Origin: Macrocybe gigantea
Taxonomy: Eukaryota; Basidiomycota; Agaricomycetes; Agaricales; Callistosporiaceae
Assembly (NCBI GenBank): GCA_011319805.1
Contig: SJRY01000136.1
Coordinates: forward strand, 248,001 to 312,000
DNA length: 64,000 nt
Reading direction: 5' to 3'
Position 1 is the first letter of the stretch. Each line of letters begins with the position of its first letter. Shown in pieces: positions 50,402-58,936 of this stretch. Both the position numbers and the translations under genes were made by a program. The notes below the pieces were generated by a model. The model saw only the letters and a program-made list of their open reading frames with translations, was not told the origin of the DNA and ran no database searches.

Positions 50402-50667
50402 TTACCACTTGCGGTGCTTGCGATGCCTGCGGCGGCGGCGGCGGCGACGGCGGCGACGACGGCGCCTTCCCTCAATGTCGGGGTCGGCTTCAGGGTCGGG
50501 AGACCTCACCTAAAGGACGAACACAGTGCGACAAGATGGTTAACCGACGAACTGGTGGACGAGCGATATGCAAAAGTTACCTCCAAAGCATCCTCATCCA
50601 CGGCAACACCGGGGGATGCGATAGCGCCACTGATAATGGCGAGGAGAGCCAAGATGTAAAGCTTCAT
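50402..50667 (-). CDS. Small secreted polycationic protein A (14-Arg run), 64 aa
   Basis: First of three tandem paralogs; no described family recognised. Exon 1 (50581-50667) gives a signal peptide MKLYILALLAIISGAIA and an acidic segment SPGVAVDEDALE. A 70-nt or so intron (donor GTAACT, acceptor TTTAG) lies exactly after Leu-Glu, in phase 0. Exon 2 (50402-50509) reads VRSPDPEADPDIEG, then 14 consecutive Arg, then HRKHRKW and stop. The mature tail is among the most basic possible sequences. The Arg run is encoded mostly by CGC with some CGT and AGG. The same layout recurs in genes B and C. A secreted DNA/RNA-, membrane- or polyanion-binding peptide is inferred from charge alone. Confidence 0.8.
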
Positions 50668-50733
50668 TGCAACTGATTGAGTTTCGATAGGTAGGCGTCA
50701 ACCTGAAGAGACCAAGTGCGGTTTGCGATACCC

Positions 50734-50741
50734 TTTAAATA
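50734..50741 (-). promoter_or_regulatory. TATA-like box of gene A
   Basis: TATTTAAA on the minus strand, about 67 bp upstream of ATG 50667. Between it and the ATG lie the words ACCTGAAG and GACCAAGTGCGG; close matches occur at the same place in gene B. Confidence 0.5.
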
Positions 50742-51367
50742 CCTCACCGAATATGCGCTAAACTTGGACGCCGTATGCTGTAGAAGGTTTTCCGTACTCC
50801 GTTGGGGTGTGTCTCTCAATCAAAGTCGGTTTCTGGGATCACGCCATAGGACGGCGTCCTAAGACTGTCGCGCATCCTTCCCCGTCTCCGCCCTTGATTA
50901 AATTCAGGTCACATCCTTCATGGCCGTCAGCTCGTCATCATGGCTCAGACAACCCTAGTTCTTTCACAATCGACCACGATGCCTCCTATTAGCATGAGGT
51001 TCGGCGCGTTACATCATCACCTTTGCGGACACCTGTGGTTATTCTGGAGAGACCAAGTTTCGTCTCGCTTTCATCAGTGTGGAGCGTCTGATCTTCACTC
51101 ATCACTCACCCTTCCCAATGTACAAAACGTGAATCGCCAAGTCGTCCGTTCGCGCCTATTTATATCTCTTATTGTCGATCGCTGTGTTCAGGAATGACAA
51201 TGCAATGTGGGCCAAGCACAAATCAATTGGAAGATACATGAGCAATAGCGACATCTCAAATTTTTCAAAGGAAAGAAGGCGAATTGCAGACAAGTGTATA
51301 TGATGCGATACGCTAAAAATGAACAACGTCCTGGGCGCCGCTTTTTTTTCTGGCTCCCACGAGCCCT
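50742..51367. other. Spacer between genes A and B
   Basis: About 630 bp containing the distal promoter of gene A and the 3' region of gene B. No further copy of the family and no other gene was seen. Confidence 0.5.
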
Positions 51368-51633
51368 TCACCAGTTCTTGCCCTTGTGGTGTCTCATCTT
51401 GCGGTGCTTGTGCTTTCGGCGCTTGTTGTGCTTCCGACGGCGACCGTGTCCGCGTCGACGACCTTCAGAAGCGGGCTCTGGGGACCTCACCTAGTCAGAC
51501 AGCGAAACGTCAGCTTAAAGGAAGGAGCATGGTAAACCATGAGTCATACCTCCAAGGCCTCTGCCTCCTCGATCATGGGGTCGGCGAGAACACCGCTGAC
51601 GAGGGCGAGAATGGCAAGGATGGCGAACTTCAT
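51368..51633 (-). CDS. Small secreted polycationic protein B, 68 aa
   Basis: Second tandem paralog. Exon 1 (51550-51633) encodes signal peptide MKFAILAILALVSGVLA and acidic segment DPMIEEAEALE. An intron of 59 nt (donor GTATGA, acceptor GACTAG; 51491-51549) follows Leu-Glu in phase 0. Exon 2 (51368-51490) reads VRSPEPASEGRRRGHGRRRK and continues with alternating Lys, His and Arg to HHKGKNW, stop TGA. About two thirds of the last 35 residues are Arg, Lys or His, with no Cys. The start is fixed by the signal peptide and by the match to genes A and C. Function unknown; high histidine content could also allow metal binding. Confidence 0.82.
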
Positions 51634-51690
51634 GTTAGCTTTTTGTAGGCAGACAATTGACCTGAACGATAACGGACGACCAGTGCGGGG

Positions 51691-51698
51691 TTTTTATA
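51691..51698 (-). promoter_or_regulatory. TATA box of gene B
   Basis: TATAAAAA on the minus strand, about 58 bp upstream of ATG 51633, preceding the GACCAGTGCGG and ACCTGAAC words that have close matches in gene A. Confidence 0.6.
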
Positions 51699-52771
51699 TG
51701 CGAATCGCCCCCATCACAACCACTTGTCTATGCCGCGTAGTCGACCGCGGCTGAAGACAATCCTTGGCCCCTGTTATGATTCAAGTACCCCTGTTCGCCG
51801 ATTCCGCTTGGGACATTGGCAAATGTCTTCGAAAGTTTTCTCTCCGTCCCGTTGGACTGCGAACGTCGCCCTACTGTCCGCGCTAGAACAAGCGCTCCGG
51901 GGAAAGACTAGTGATTATATTATGATTCTGGCCCCAGACACCGTTTCTGTACATCTCCCGGTTCGAATTAGCTGCACCCCCGCCCAAGTTTCGCAAAGCG
52001 GGATCGATTCATTGAGAGATCAAATCCCAAATATCTCAGAAGGAACCTGCCACCCGACGCTGACTGAAATTCCACCTTCTAGAACAAGGTACTCGATGCT
52101 CATGGATGGATTGGACTACATATCATTACCTTCGTTTGGTCCGTTCTGCGACGTATGGCGGAGTTACAGTAGGAGCTCACATAGTCGTCACGTGGTAGCC
52201 AGTACATACAGTAGTACTTTGATGTAAAATTTTTGCTTCATTACCCAACTGCACATGCCGTTTCGTCGTCCTCTTTCAACAGATGTTGCCTGGAAAGGTA
52301 GCCAAATGCAAGGGGACGAAAGCGGCTAGCAGGCTTGTCATGCAATTGGAAGTGCAATCTCAGAAGTCCACTGCACGTCGGAACTGGTTCCCTTAGGCTA
52401 GCGCTTGGTTAGGCATCCTTTCGCGGAATGTTTATCGGATTTTGGCAAGCCCGTCTCCAAATATATGGGCAGCCAGTTTGCCCATGGCAGTCTTCCTGCG
52501 TTGTGCACGCTGCGCTGTGTCTGGTTCAAAATTTCATCGATGATGCTCATCATTGGGTTAATAGACAGGAACTATCGACGAGCGTATGACACGATGGGTT
52601 TGACAAACACTGTTATGATTCACATATAATTCTCGTCGATTGACGAACGTTACAGTTACGCTTTTTGTACAACAAGATGGGAGCTAAAAGTGTACAGACA
52701 GGATCCTTCACGAACAAAAAGGAATGTCCCCGCCCCCAGCCGCCCATCCGGTCACGATCAGCGCGAAACGC
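51699..52771. other. Spacer between genes B and C
   Basis: About 1.07 kb. A plus-strand open frame (51724-52227) overlaps the gene B promoter and has no recognisable feature. No fourth copy of the cationic family was found here. Confidence 0.45.
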
Positions 52772-53025
52772 TTAGTGACGCTTCTTGCCGTGCTTTTTGA
52801 CCTTACGGTGCTTGACTTTACGGTGCTTGACCTTCCTTCGGCGGCGCGGTTCGGGCTCCGGTTCGGGCTCCGGAGACCTCAGCTAGAAACATGGCGACAG
52901 TCAGTGAACCGGGTGATGCCAGAAAAGTTGTGCCATGCCTCTAGATCGGCGTCGTCACCGATGGGCTCGGGCGTGGCCATGGCCATGCCAAGGATAGCGA
53001 GAAGAGCGAAGATGGAGAACTTCAT
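52772..53025 (-). CDS. Small secreted polycationic protein C, 65 aa
   Basis: Third tandem paralog. Exon 1 (52939-53025): signal peptide MKFSIFALLAILGMAMA and acidic segment TPEPIGDDADLE. Exon 2 (52772-52882): LRSPEPEPEPEP, then RRRRKVKHRKVKHRKVKK with an internal KVKHR repeat, ending HGKKRH, stop TAA. The intron (52883-52938, 56 nt) sits at the same place and phase as in A and B but starts with GC instead of GT (GAG|GCATGG), with a normal CTAG acceptor. The only nearby GT donor (in ATCGGTGAC) would shift the frame into an early stop, so a GC-AG intron or a base error is the best reading. Function unknown. Confidence 0.8.
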
Positions 53026-53077
53026 TGTCGAAATGTGAATAGGTATGAACCTGCTGGGACACTCAGCCTCCCATGGT

Positions 53078-53085
53078 CTTTTATA
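53078..53085 (-). promoter_or_regulatory. TATA box of gene C
   Basis: Consensus TATAAAAG on the minus strand, about 53 bp upstream of ATG 53025. Confidence 0.6.
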
Positions 53086-54656: not shown

Positions 54657-57600
54657 TCAGGTATATTCCTGGGCATCTCCAGGAGTCATCGATGCGAACG
54701 CGACTACTCGATCTCGAATTGAGGTCCTGCCATCATTTTGGGAAGAATGTGAGCTGATGGAATCCAGATCTTGCTGTGTCAAGGGACTATCAGACCGGTC
54801 TTGCTCGCCGAGCTCGGAGGGTGACTGCGTGCGAAGGATGGAGGCTCCGACTACAGCATTGTCGTGTTCTTGCAAGTAACTATCTTGGCGCTTGGTCCAT
54901 ACTCGCACCGCCCCGTCGTGGCTGCCGGTCGCGAACATGAAGGGATCTTCAGTGGCAAGGTTCCATGCAATGCAGGTCAAGTCTCCACCGAGAGCTCCCG
55001 TTCGGATGTGATGCAGTAACGCCCCTGATTCCTGGTCCCAGATATGGATGTCACCGCCTACACGCGTTAGGTCATTCATAATGATGTTCGGTTTAAGAGA
55101 TACCTTTCCCAGCACAGAGGACGAGCTCGTGGTTCTTTCCACCAAAGTAGCTTGGTCCGGCAAAATCGACAGGTGCTTTCGGCATATAAGTGTGTCTATT
55201 TCCATGGATAAGCAAACTGACACGGAGAGGGGCTGACGCGGGGGGGGGGGGGGGGCGAACCTCAAGGTAAGCCTACCAATAGTTGTATTATTCTCGCGGT
55301 CCTTGACAAGCTCCAGTTTCCACAGTTGGGGCGGTGCCTACGAATTGATCAGTAATCTCCCGACATTGCAAGGGCATGGAATATACCCACCTTGTTTTCG
55401 TAGCTGACCAATGCGATGATACCACTGCGGTTGTTCTGCGCTACTGTGATATCGCGAACATCATTCAGAACAGGTGTACGGCTTGAAGGGAGAAGGTATG
55501 GGTCCTGAGTAACACGAGGATCAATACAGGGACTCACTTTTCGACTTGTTTGGTTTCCATGTTATACACTGGGCATAGATTAAATAAGCTGGATCTGAAG
55601 TGTCTGCACGACATCGACTTACCAGCGAGTTGTTTCTCCGCTCGTGATTTGCTAGGCTGAAGTCCGGAGGGTGATTCCAACAGCGGACCGACACCAATCA
55701 AGCGCAATGAATCGGGAGTGATGGCAACGTCATGCAATTTCATTTTGCCAAAGTGATACTGTTCCATGACCTGAGAATAGCCATTAGCGGCTTTTCGGCC
55801 AAATACGGTCCACTACGACGAACTTTGCCGCTGAGATCCTGGGTGGTGTTGTGTCAGCATCATCTATAATCAGTTGGAAAAGGCCATACCAGTTTGGTCA
55901 CCACGTTTGCTTCGACCGAGATGAAGGCTGCGACTCGAATGTCAGAGGGCTGCACAATATGGGAGCTAATGGCATACTCTGTCCGTCTGGGAACCATGTC
56001 ACCGCTTCTACCGAGGCCTGTCGATCTATTGTCTTCTTGCAAACACCATCCTGAGATGGATATTATCAGGAACTTATCTGTCGCAGTGCCGAGCACTCAA
56101 GCCTACCTCCGCGGTCCAAACCTTGATGGCTCTGTTCAACTTGGTTAGGAGGGTGTGGCCAGTAGGCGACCTGAGGGTGTTGGCTCGGGTTAATGAACGG
56201 AGTTGTTGGGTTCGGTGTGGTACCTTACCACGCGACTTGTCCGACGAAGCCTTTGGCATGCGCAAGGACACGATGAGAAACAAACGGTTCCTTGTCAGTT
56301 GCATTGCGTCAGTCGGCCGAGGTATGGATTCATCGGAGTTGCTCACCCCGACGCGGAAGATGATGGATGTTCGATCCCAGCTGATCACCGGTTTATTGAG
56401 TCCTCGGACACCAACGGGTACCAGCAACGCGACACATACCTCGACGTGGCCAAGTACTTTCCATCCGGCGAGAACTGCAAATGCCGCACCAAAGCCGAAT
56501 GTGCCGCAAGATCTTGGGTGGCCTCCATGATTTTGAGTTTCGGCACAAGAGCGGCCACGCGGGAACGCAAGACCGCTTTGACAGGCTCATCCGCCATTGT
56601 CCTCTTACGCTCAGAGGCGCTCCCCGTCAAATTTGAAGACGACGTGCGCTGCCGATGTGGTTCACGGAGGGCGTTCAATGCGCTCATAGCATTAGGGGCT
56701 GAGAGCAAGGACCGCATCTTGATGCTCCGGAGGGCATCGCGCCACAGCTGTTTTCCAGGTGAGGGTGGAGTCGGTGGCGCGGGAGCCTCTTTCTCGATGG
56801 GCGACGCGGGGACGGAGAATGACTTGGAAGGTTCAATAGGCGAGTTGGGCTCGAGATCGGAATGGCGGCGCGCGGGGGCCAGGCGCTCCACGGATGGTCC
56901 GCTGCGAGAGAAGGCGATCGGGAGTGTGCCGGCTTCCAAATCATCGGAGCCATCGGAGTCACCATGGGGCCTGTGGAACACGCACCCCAACCCAGATGCG
57001 ATCTTGCCGAGCAGGGCGTGCGCCCGATGAAACTGGTTTTGGATAGTGCTGAGCATTTCACGCAGTCTGATCATTCCAGGCATACGGAGGATAGTCTGCT
57101 GGTATTCGAATATCGCGTCGCCCAGCCATTTCTGCCCACGATGCCGAAGGAAAATCCAGCGCTCGGATGCGAACCATGTTGACACGGCAGTGAGGCCAAA
57201 GGACGTGATAGCTGTGAAAACTGTAGTCATGGTCGATGTCGCTTGTGCCTATATTTTTTACGTTGTCCATCGGAAATTAGACCCTTGGCGAGCGGTTTAT
57301 TATGTACATACCTGTTCAGAGGCATAGGCGAAACAACAAAGGCCGATTGAGAAACATGCGACGGACACGACGAGGAACACGAGTGGTGATCTCTTGATCC
57401 AGATCAAAACCCACCAGGGAACGCGATCTCCCGGCGATCGACTGGACAAACGGCGAAAATCAGTTCTGGCATCCGGGCCGATAGGGCAGATGATAAACAT
57501 ACTACATGGCTTGTTTCCATGTCAATCCGAGCAAACTGTTCACAGCGGCGGCAATGCTGAAGACGAGGGATGCGAACCAAAAACAGTTTACGGCATCCGC

Positions 57601-58936
57601 CACTCCTGAATGAGGAAGGTCAAAGGAGTATTGAATCGTAGTCGCTGTGACGGCGGAAAAGAAGGTGGCGACAGTGGACAGATTGAGAAGATTGGCTGCC
57701 CCATGCTTTTGTGCGAACCGAATGGTCGGTACACCTAGGATCAATCCACTTGGTACAAAAATGAGGACTTGTATACGACAAGATGACTGACCAACTTCAA
57801 TGAACATGGACAAAGTTGATGTTATGCTATCAATATGCTCGCCCATTTCCGTTGATAAATCGTGAATGTAGCGTTGTACGGCAGGGTAGCGAAAGTGTCC
57901 TACGATCAGGGTCGAATTCAATTATGGTTGTGCTTGGTAAATTTGCCAAGTCACCAACCTGCATATTCCTTCAGACACGAGGCCCAATACTGACGGATGG
58001 GATCAGACACTAATATCTTGAACGTAGATGCTCTTCACCTTGAGATCACCCTCAAACGAAGAGATCGAAGCGTTGACTGCTTCATCCGTGAACTCCGGAA
58101 ACTCGTTTAGACAGTTGAGAAAGGTCATCACGTCCGTTGCCAAGGCTTCTAATTGTTGCGGGAAGAACTCCAAGTCCAAATTTTCCATGACTATTGGACG
58201 CGAGACGTGCGGTGGGGTCTTTTGTTTTGTTTTTCCGCGCCTTCGGCGTCGGCCTATGGTTTGTGTTTCATTGATGAACTCTCTGGAAATTCTTGTGATC
58301 TTGCGTGGAAAGAGGTCGGCAGCATTCTCTCGATAGAGGTACAATATTTGAGCAAGCCGTTCTCGAAGATGGAACGCAGATGATAGGATAGCGACCGAGC
58401 TGCCAAGTTGACGGGCGGCGTTTGCAAAATTCCGGAGCTGAGAAGAATACGCGTCAGTAATTGAGGTTCTGGGCATCCACCAAGTCAGAAGGAGACCAGA
58501 CTTCTTTGTCCAAATTATTTATGCGCCTTGTGATAATGATAAGCCGTGATCCGCAAAGTCGAGGAATAGTCCCACCTCTGAAATTTATTGAACGCCTCAG
58601 CACCGACGACCTGGAGATGTTCATCGACCGTCGCTTGAAATGCGCGACCTTATTGAGACATTGCCATTGGTCGAACAGTATTTACTCACGAACGTCTCTG
58701 TCATCCTCAAAGTTCGGTTGTTGTGCCAAGCCTTCGTGGACACGTTAACACTCGGTGGGGGGATCAAAAAGAGCGGGTGACGAACTGGGTACAGCCTCCT
58801 CCCCTTGCTTGAGTAGCATCTCGACCAAGCTCAGGATGGTTTCCCTCCGGCTAGGAGACTGTATCGGACGGCCGGTGGGAGTGGTGGCTCCATGGGGACG
58901 GGATTCAACGAAATCTGTAGGAAAGACAGTGGGCAT
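54657..58936 (-). CDS. Membrane-anchored WD40-repeat protein
   Basis: Large multi-exon protein joining an N-terminal helical and membrane part to a C-terminal WD40 propeller. The N-terminal exons read MPTVFPTDFVESRPHG, then EMTETF-VVGAEAFNKFQR, LRNFANAARQLGSSVAIL, LRERLAQILYLYRENAADLF, YPAVQRYIHDLSTEMGEHID and FIEVGVPTIRFAQKHGAANL. Three or four hydrophobic helices follow (VATFFSAVTATTIQYSF, FWFASLVFSIAAAVNSLL, SPLVFLVVSVACFSIGLC, TVFTAITSFGLTAV). A disordered Ser/Pro-rich stretch (about 56750-56900) leads to WD repeats (VRHLQFSPDGKYLATSR, GQVAWSPTGHTLLTKL, LHDVAITPDSLRLIGVG, GGDIHIWDQESG, FATGSHDGAVRVWTKR). Stop 54657-54659. The WD part resembles WDR26-type propellers by pattern only. The N-terminal exon joins use two short introns that I inferred. 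Function unknown. Confidence 0.78.
55240..55255. repeat. 16-base G homopolymer in an intron
   Basis: A run of 16 G on the plus strand (C on the coding strand) inside an intron of the WD40 gene, just before the acceptor that leads to YMPKAPVDFAGPSYF. Confidence 0.9.

Follow-up and report, generated by a model that had tools for sequence, protein, structure and literature searches.

In a 64-kb window of a Macrocybe gigantea contig (C136), three minus-strand genes, which we call g1, g2 and g3, belong to a family of small proteins in which a putative signal peptide, two acidic segments and an almost pure Arg/Lys/His tail follow one another on a single plan. The gene structure, the paralogy, the coding constraint, a dipeptide register in the second acidic segment, the constancy of the tail charge and the presence of candidate processing genes are established here. 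From these features we propose, at a probability of about 40%, that the proteins are single-peptide prepropeptides, which would be cut after an LE-x-R motif and then shortened by a dipeptidyl aminopeptidase, so that an extracellular polycation is set free.

The assembly that includes the window comprises 41.2 Mb in 333 contigs. It was searched with g1, g2, g3 and g6 as queries, gene models were then built, and the counts given are lower bounds. An earlier note on this DNA had described a small tandem family; this was confirmed, and the family reaches past the window, with at least seven paralogs in the genome. The gene g4 lies on C136, 20.9 kb past the window end, g5 is on C3, and g6 and g7 form a divergent pair on C66. 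Contig C300 carries copies of g1-g4 in the same order, the contig being reversed, and most plausibly represents the second haplotype, because this order is kept and because the counterpart of a HECT_2 open reading frame (ORF) near the trio is 96% identical. No second copies of g5 or of g6/g7 were found in the genome contig searches. Weak matches on C101 and C138 proved, when their sequences were examined, to be non-members of the family, and another on C259 yielded no gene model.

The two-exon structures given for the trio at 50402-50667, 51368-51633 and 52772-53025 (whole-window numbering) were reproduced. Indeed, g1, g2 and g3 all have a phase-0 intron directly after Leu-Glu, as claimed, and the 14-Arg run of g1, the mixed RRK/HK tail of g2, the KVKHR repeats of g3 and the lack of Cys are all present. 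The paralogs have in common a putative signal peptide, the position of the intron, the x-Arg-(Ser/Ala)-Pro motif and the basic tail, and MK, hydrophobic core and AxA can be recognized by eye in all of them. The (V/L)RSP(D/E)P start of exon 2 noted for the trio is real but too narrow for the family, in which V, L, M or I is followed by R and then by SP or AP. A C-terminal Trp, previously overlooked, ends 5 of the 7 paralogs, the C-termini being RKW, KNW, KRH, HRW or DDDDC. In 9 of 11 copies the reading frame runs intact through junction and motif, the exceptions, as assembled, being g4 on C136 and g7. In the former (L026:4881 onward; its C300 copy is L027) the frame shifts just inside exon 2, and an alternative AG nearby would rescue frame and tail but drop the conserved Arg. 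In g7 (L025:5876-6206) the frame is lost at the end of exon 1, where it meets the intron, and the tail ends in DKDDDDC, not in Trp. These frameshifts may reflect assembly errors or decayed copies.

Exon 1 and the tail are coding sequence under purifying selection. In the three haplotype pairs of g1-g3 (window contig versus C300, the g4 pair being counted separately), exon 1 shows 12 synonymous and 4 nonsynonymous changes (pS 0.196, pN 0.020; Fisher P 1.0e-5) and the tail 8 and 2 (pS 0.160, pN 0.011; Fisher P 1.2e-4), with a combined Fisher P of 2.8e-9. The check on dN/dS in the two parts proposed in the earlier note, run here between haplotypes, therefore identifies constrained coding sequence through a synonymous excess in each of them. 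In the g4 pair, exon 1 differs by 5 synonymous and 0 nonsynonymous changes, the tail by 3 and 1. In the 14-Arg run of g1, AGG, CGC and CGT codons are mixed, and every Arg is kept between haplotypes with 2 synonymous changes. The spacer between the two constrained parts carries 2.5 synonymous and 4.5 nonsynonymous changes in the three pairs (pS 0.090, pN 0.056).

This spacer is a second acidic segment, missed in the earlier note, and lies inside exon 2 between x-Arg and the tail. It consists of an X-Pro/X-Ala dipeptide array: SP.EP.EP.EP.EP followed by RRRR in g3, SP.EP.DP.EP.EA.DP.G in g5, SP.DP.EA.DP.DI.EG in g1 (SP.DP.DP.DP.DV.EG in its C300 copy), SP.EP.EP.EV.DG in g4 (C300), AP.EP.EP.EA.AD.LD.H in g6 and SP.EP.AS.EG in g2. 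All 29 spacer prolines in nine sequences, g1 and g2 alleles included, fall on even positions counted from x-Arg. Judged by its residues, the array is the substrate pattern expected for dipeptidyl aminopeptidases of the Ste13/DPP4 type, and it directly follows a kexin-type site, a single Arg at which cleavage is predicted. An acidic segment had been thought to mask the cationic tail. The acidic part exists, but it is made of two parts, of which the exon-2 array is more telling than exon 1, and masking is only partial, because together they offset about 35-50% of the tail charge (six paralogs with both computed).

The tails of g1 to g7 are 21, 30, 24, 27, 23, 30 and 39 residues long, and their net charge (K+R-D-E) is 18, 17, 16, 18, 18, 19 and 17, a range of 16-19. 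With g4 represented by its C300 copy, the standard deviation (SD) of this charge is 0.90, while resampled tails gave 4.29 on average (P 0.0001; 0 of 20,000 permutations as low), figures to be read with the caution that the tail boundary was chosen after viewing the sequences and that paralogs, which share ancestry, are not independent. When g7 was left out, the SD was 0.94 versus 3.07 (P about 0.003). The computed charge is +16.3 to +19.8 at pH 7 and 20.2-30.3 at pH 4, the g7 tail passing from about +18 to +30. K, R and H make up 0.77-0.97 of the tails, His (2 to 11 per tail) acts as their variable filler, KHR or KVKHR units occur only within some of them, and they look disordered. The suggestion that charge rather than sequence is kept thus holds between paralogs; between haplotypes it does not, the tail sequence itself being conserved (8 synonymous and 2 nonsynonymous changes; 3 and 1 in g4). 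Dibasic RR is not depleted in the seven tails (46 versus 43.4 expected from shuffles), whereas KR occurs 3 times versus 15.4 expected, with 0 of 20,000 shuffles as low, and 3 versus 7.3 when tandem repeats were collapsed (P 0.02).

How could such a precursor mature? Signal peptidase would cut between AxA and xP, and a kexin-type protease would cut after LE-x-R, near the phase-0 intron, so that the remaining chain would begin with (Ser/Ala)-Pro. A Ste13/DPP4-type enzyme could then strip SP, EP, DP and EA dipeptides stepwise, so that the acidic spacer would shorten towards the arginines. The predicted product, 20-40 residues of Arg/Lys/His with a charge of about +18 and in most cases a Trp at its end, would bind anionic surfaces by charge. 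Its likeliest use, and the weakest step of the scheme, would be to defend the hyphal surface against microbes or competitors, with more effect at acid pH, at which His carries a charge; more broadly, a defensive or envelope-binding function seems most likely, but this is a guess. The genome contains candidates for both enzymes: a single gene on C274 matches DPPIV_N through four exon matches (candidate dipeptidyl aminopeptidase), and three kexin P-domain matches lie on C68 and C228 (candidate kexins). Seven paralogs on one plan, the proline register, the constant charge, the purifying selection and these candidate genes all favor the prepropeptide reading, as do a canonical Ste13-type repeat precursor in this genome and the agaricomycete precursors of PMC9769878, both described below. 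A more specific version of it, in which promelittin-type maturation operates in a fungus, a Ste13-burned acidic X-Pro/X-Ala fuse arming a Trp-capped polycation of about +18 whose charge is under stabilizing selection while paralog sequence is free, is put forward as a tentative and rather doubtful proposal.

Besides the choice of tail boundary and the shared ancestry mentioned above, several observations weigh against the prepropeptide reading. The spacer, on which the trimming would act, is the part under least constraint (2.5 synonymous, 4.5 nonsynonymous), and its proline register is partly a product of hexanucleotide (EP)n repeats and of shared descent. The X-Pro array runs unbroken to the first Arg only in g3; the others end in EG, DG or H, and since the ends DI.EG, AS.EG, EV.DG and AD.LD.H are poor DPP4 substrates, trimming would stop 2-5 residues short. 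The acidic parts cover only the 35-50% of tail charge given above. As RR is undepleted, Kex2 could shred the tails. Finally, these are nearly devoid of hydrophobic residues, unlike classical amphipathic antimicrobial peptides.

Two other fates of the tail have to be considered. It could stay unprocessed, only the signal peptide and perhaps the pro-segment being removed, and a disordered acidic/basic protein would then bind cell wall, polyphosphate, oxalate or extracellular nucleic acid, or be a matrix component. Charge constancy and constraint would suit any electrostatic binder, and the spacers are variable, with ends that often lack DPP4-type dipeptides; but the register of prolines with x-Arg and the conserved LE-x-R would be left unexplained, and we regard this fate as possible, though improbable. 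The RR-rich part of the tail could itself be a dense Kex2 zone, from which Kex2/Kex1 trimming would yield a short Trp-protected C-terminal peptide of signalling type, such as HRKHRKW or KHKHRKMRHHKGKNW, the precursor having lost the repeats of agaricomycete Ste13-type peptide precursors. This is somewhat more doubtful. RR is frequent, with 46 sites in the seven tails, but KR, the reputed best Kex2 site, is depleted in them. Trp ends 5 of 7 paralogs, and Trp-ending cores with Ste13 motifs occur in this genome and, according to PMC9769878, in agaricomycetes. Against this, the Ste13-like motif precedes the arginine run and does not stand directly before a short core, and neither a constant whole-tail charge nor purifying selection would be needed if the tail were mostly discarded.

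It is unlikely that the family serves against acid stress, as a secreted His/Lys/Arg polycation which, in a habitat turned acid, would buffer or shield proteins outside the cell. In such a role its bacterial analogue, not homologue, would be the acid-shock protein Asr. The tails do gain charge from pH 7 to pH 4 (about +18 to +30 in g7), and the sole above-threshold profile matches are secreted KHRKH-rich proteins, bacterial-looking by eye; however, composition drives these matches, which are weak (best E 2.1e-3), and the most Arg-rich tails, g1 and g5, hold just 2 and 4 His. That there are no genes at all, the frames being opened by chance across GC-rich trinucleotide repeats, is highly improbable. 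CGC-type repeats are present, and in 2 of 11 copies the frame is broken at the junction, but seven paralogs share a single intron position, the synonymous excess in exon 1 and tail reaches P 2.8e-9, the Arg codons of the 14-Arg run are mixed, and the promoter is shared.

In the trio, exon 1 measures 84-87 bases, the intron 56-71 bases and exon 2, stop included, 108-123 bases; the features below are all on the minus strand. Exon 1 of g1 (50581..50667) encodes the putative signal peptide, xP and the acidic pro-segment ending ALE; 4 synonymous changes separate it from the C300 copy, which encodes the same protein. The intron (50510..50580, 71 bp, GT-AG, phase 0) matches the C300 copy at 64 of 71 aligned bases. 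Exon 2 (50402..50509) comprises VR (50509-50504), the X-Pro/X-Ala spacer SPDPEADPDIEG (50503-50468), the tail R14-HRKHRKW (50467-50405), whose residues all recur in the C300 copy despite 2 synonymous changes, and the stop. The g1 protein thus reads MKLYILALLAIISGAIASPGVAVDEDALE up to the intron and VRSPDPEADPDIEG-R14-HRKHRKW after it. In g2, exon 1 (51550..51633) encodes the putative signal peptide and an acidic pro-segment ending ALE, the intron (51491..51549, 59 bp) is GT-AG and phase 0, and exon 2 (51368..51490) comprises VR (51490-51485), the spacer SPEPASEG (51484-51461), a 30-residue R/K/H tail ending KNW (51460-51371) and the stop; the protein is MKFAILAILALVSGVLADPMIEEAEALE before the intron and VRSPEPASEGRRRGHGRRRKHNKRRKHKHRKMRHHKGKNW beyond it. 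In g3, exon 1 (52939..53025), with putative signal peptide and acidic pro-segment ending DLE, differs from the C300 copy by 5 synonymous and 0 nonsynonymous changes. The 56-bp phase-0 intron (52883..52938) is GC-AG, not GT-AG, as it is in the C300 copy. Exon 2 (52772..52882) holds LR (52882-52877), the spacer SPEPEPEPEP (52876-52847), the tail RRRRKVKHRKVKHRKVKKHGKKRH (52846-52775) and the stop; spacer and tail together show 6 synonymous and 0 nonsynonymous changes against the C300 copy, and the two exons encode MKFSIFALLAILGMAMATPEPIGDDADLE and LRSPEPEPEPEPRRRRKVKHRKVKHRKVKKHGKKRH, respectively.

In 10 of 11 copies the ATG is preceded, at a distance of 60-81 bases, by a TATA-like box, the exception being g6, which has TATAAG, and a CAGGT(C/T) element shared by most paralogs comes after the box. 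In the trio these boxes are TATTTAAAG (50733..50741, minus strand, 74 bases before the ATG of g1), TATAAAAAC (51690..51698, minus strand, 65 bases before that of g2) and TATAAAAGA (53077..53085, minus strand, 60 bases before that of g3). WD40-like segments (below cut-offs), DUF6535 and HECT_2 are found near the trio, the DUF6535 match being in an ORF at 57502-57921 of the window and above the Pfam cut-off (27.9 versus 23.9 bits). ELYS and DUF155 lie near g5; the surroundings of g4 gave just a short transmembrane-segment model, and three ORFs tried near g6/g7 gave no Pfam match. As no neighbour is shared among the loci, an operon-like or island reading was dropped. Rfam and tRNA scans of the window gave no matches.

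The genome also holds at least one repeat-type Ste13 precursor (C297:73800-75200; L063, also L055) with -PEW cores; in its open frame, cores such as SPEW, APEW and TPEW stand between KR/RR sites with EA/EP dipeptides. A signal-peptide-like start lies upstream of it in a different frame. Genome-wide, [DE][AP] repeats gave 67 pattern matches versus 21 in a reversed control; ten other stretches were examined, none being family members and one being the repeat-type Ste13 precursor. Near-identical stretches occur at C236:26329-27254, with a matching pattern on C237 and C247, and possibly represent a multicopy element or unplaced haplotypes. A genome search for heme peroxidases (PF00141) gave at least three matches (L060, L061 and L062), two of them over cut-off; this gives no hint of a large set of ligninolytic peroxidases.

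The family had been called apparently undescribed, and Pfam, NCBIfam and PDB sequences yielded no described family that it matches. With six paralogs, nothing passed the Pfam cut-off (the matches of two members reached E 0.041-0.13), the best NCBIfam match was TonB for one of six members (E 0.0043), and the best match among PDB sequences (E 0.21) was mostly to the Arg-rich stretch of a viral RNA-binding protein; the last two are read as composition. Of 3,916 candidates in the protein database, a six-paralog profile retrieved 6 at E up to 1 (best 2.1e-3), none convincing; these (P0001-P0006) look bacterial and seem to match by composition. None of 393 candidates matched an exon-1 profile at E up to 10, and none of 36 stretches matching by pattern in a viral-contig scan was confirmed. 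As a coverage control, the neighbouring HECT_2 ORF retrieved 304 proteins, and among the 120 listed none was above 64% identity. The database thus has relatives but no close one, so that absence from it is weak evidence, and with the nearest listed relative of this ORF only 64% identical, lineage restriction cannot be claimed. In literature searches no such family was described; the strings HRKHRKW and RSPEPEPE were unmatched, and KHRKHRK matches were, by title, not on fungal genes.

Were the prepropeptide reading true, the Ste13 processing code would be tied to a charge-based effector, and the family would allow a clean test of whether basidiomycetes arm toxic cations by extracellular dipeptide trimming. 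Charge constancy over rearranged tails would also be a simple example from nature in which a bulk property, not the sequence, is selected. If the peptides are merely generic binders, the family is one more orphan secreted family among many.

Dipeptide trimming of the Ste13 type is known from yeast alpha-factor, and bee promelittin and moth procecropin are matured by stepwise dipeptidyl aminopeptidase trimming. Both of the latter resemble the family in having a signal peptide, which is putative in the family, then an acidic X-Pro/X-Ala array and a cationic peptide, as do the apidaecin and hymenoptaecin precursors in PMC3415428, where stepwise dipeptide removal is proposed for the ant hymenoptaecin precursor. 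These precursors are however animal, with no detectable homology, and they mature to amphipathic or proline-rich peptides instead of pure Arg/Lys/His ones; the family has in addition an acidic LE-x-R pro-segment ahead of the array. Its tails are net-positive and within the 12-50 residues of antimicrobial peptides, with a charge above the +2 to +9 usual for cationic ones (PMC6272668), but they lack the substantial hydrophobic/amphipathic part of such peptides. The DELD family of Piriformospora indica is likewise a small secreted His-containing basidiomycete multigene family; according to PMC3192844, its members have 101-135 residues, His/Ala-rich predicted helices and a C-terminal RSIDELD, none of which is found here.

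Bacterial secreted KHRKH-rich proteins and Asr have a signal peptide, as the family seems to, and share its Lys/His/Arg-rich tail, but lack the intron, LE-x-R and RSPEP, and the match is weak and composition-driven. A further known system, with Ste13-type members in agaricomycetes, is that of the KEX2-processed repeat proteins. Alpha-factor-like Ste13 trimming is reported for agaricomycete peptide precursors in PMC6339444 and PMC9769878, the latter describing Trp-ending cores and products cut after a single Arg, with evidence partly from a yeast host; these Ste13-type precursors are reported without known function. Like them, the family has a precursor, here putatively secreted, with an acidic X-Pro/X-Ala array after a basic site and, in most paralogs, a C-terminal Trp. 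Unlike them, it has one core per protein and no repeated cores between KR/RR/KK, RR occurring only as tail runs; its site is a single Arg, and its predicted product is almost pure polycation. Because the defining repeats are absent, the family does not belong to the KEX2-processed repeat proteins. It appears to share their Ste13 code in part, with a predicted product of a chemically different kind.

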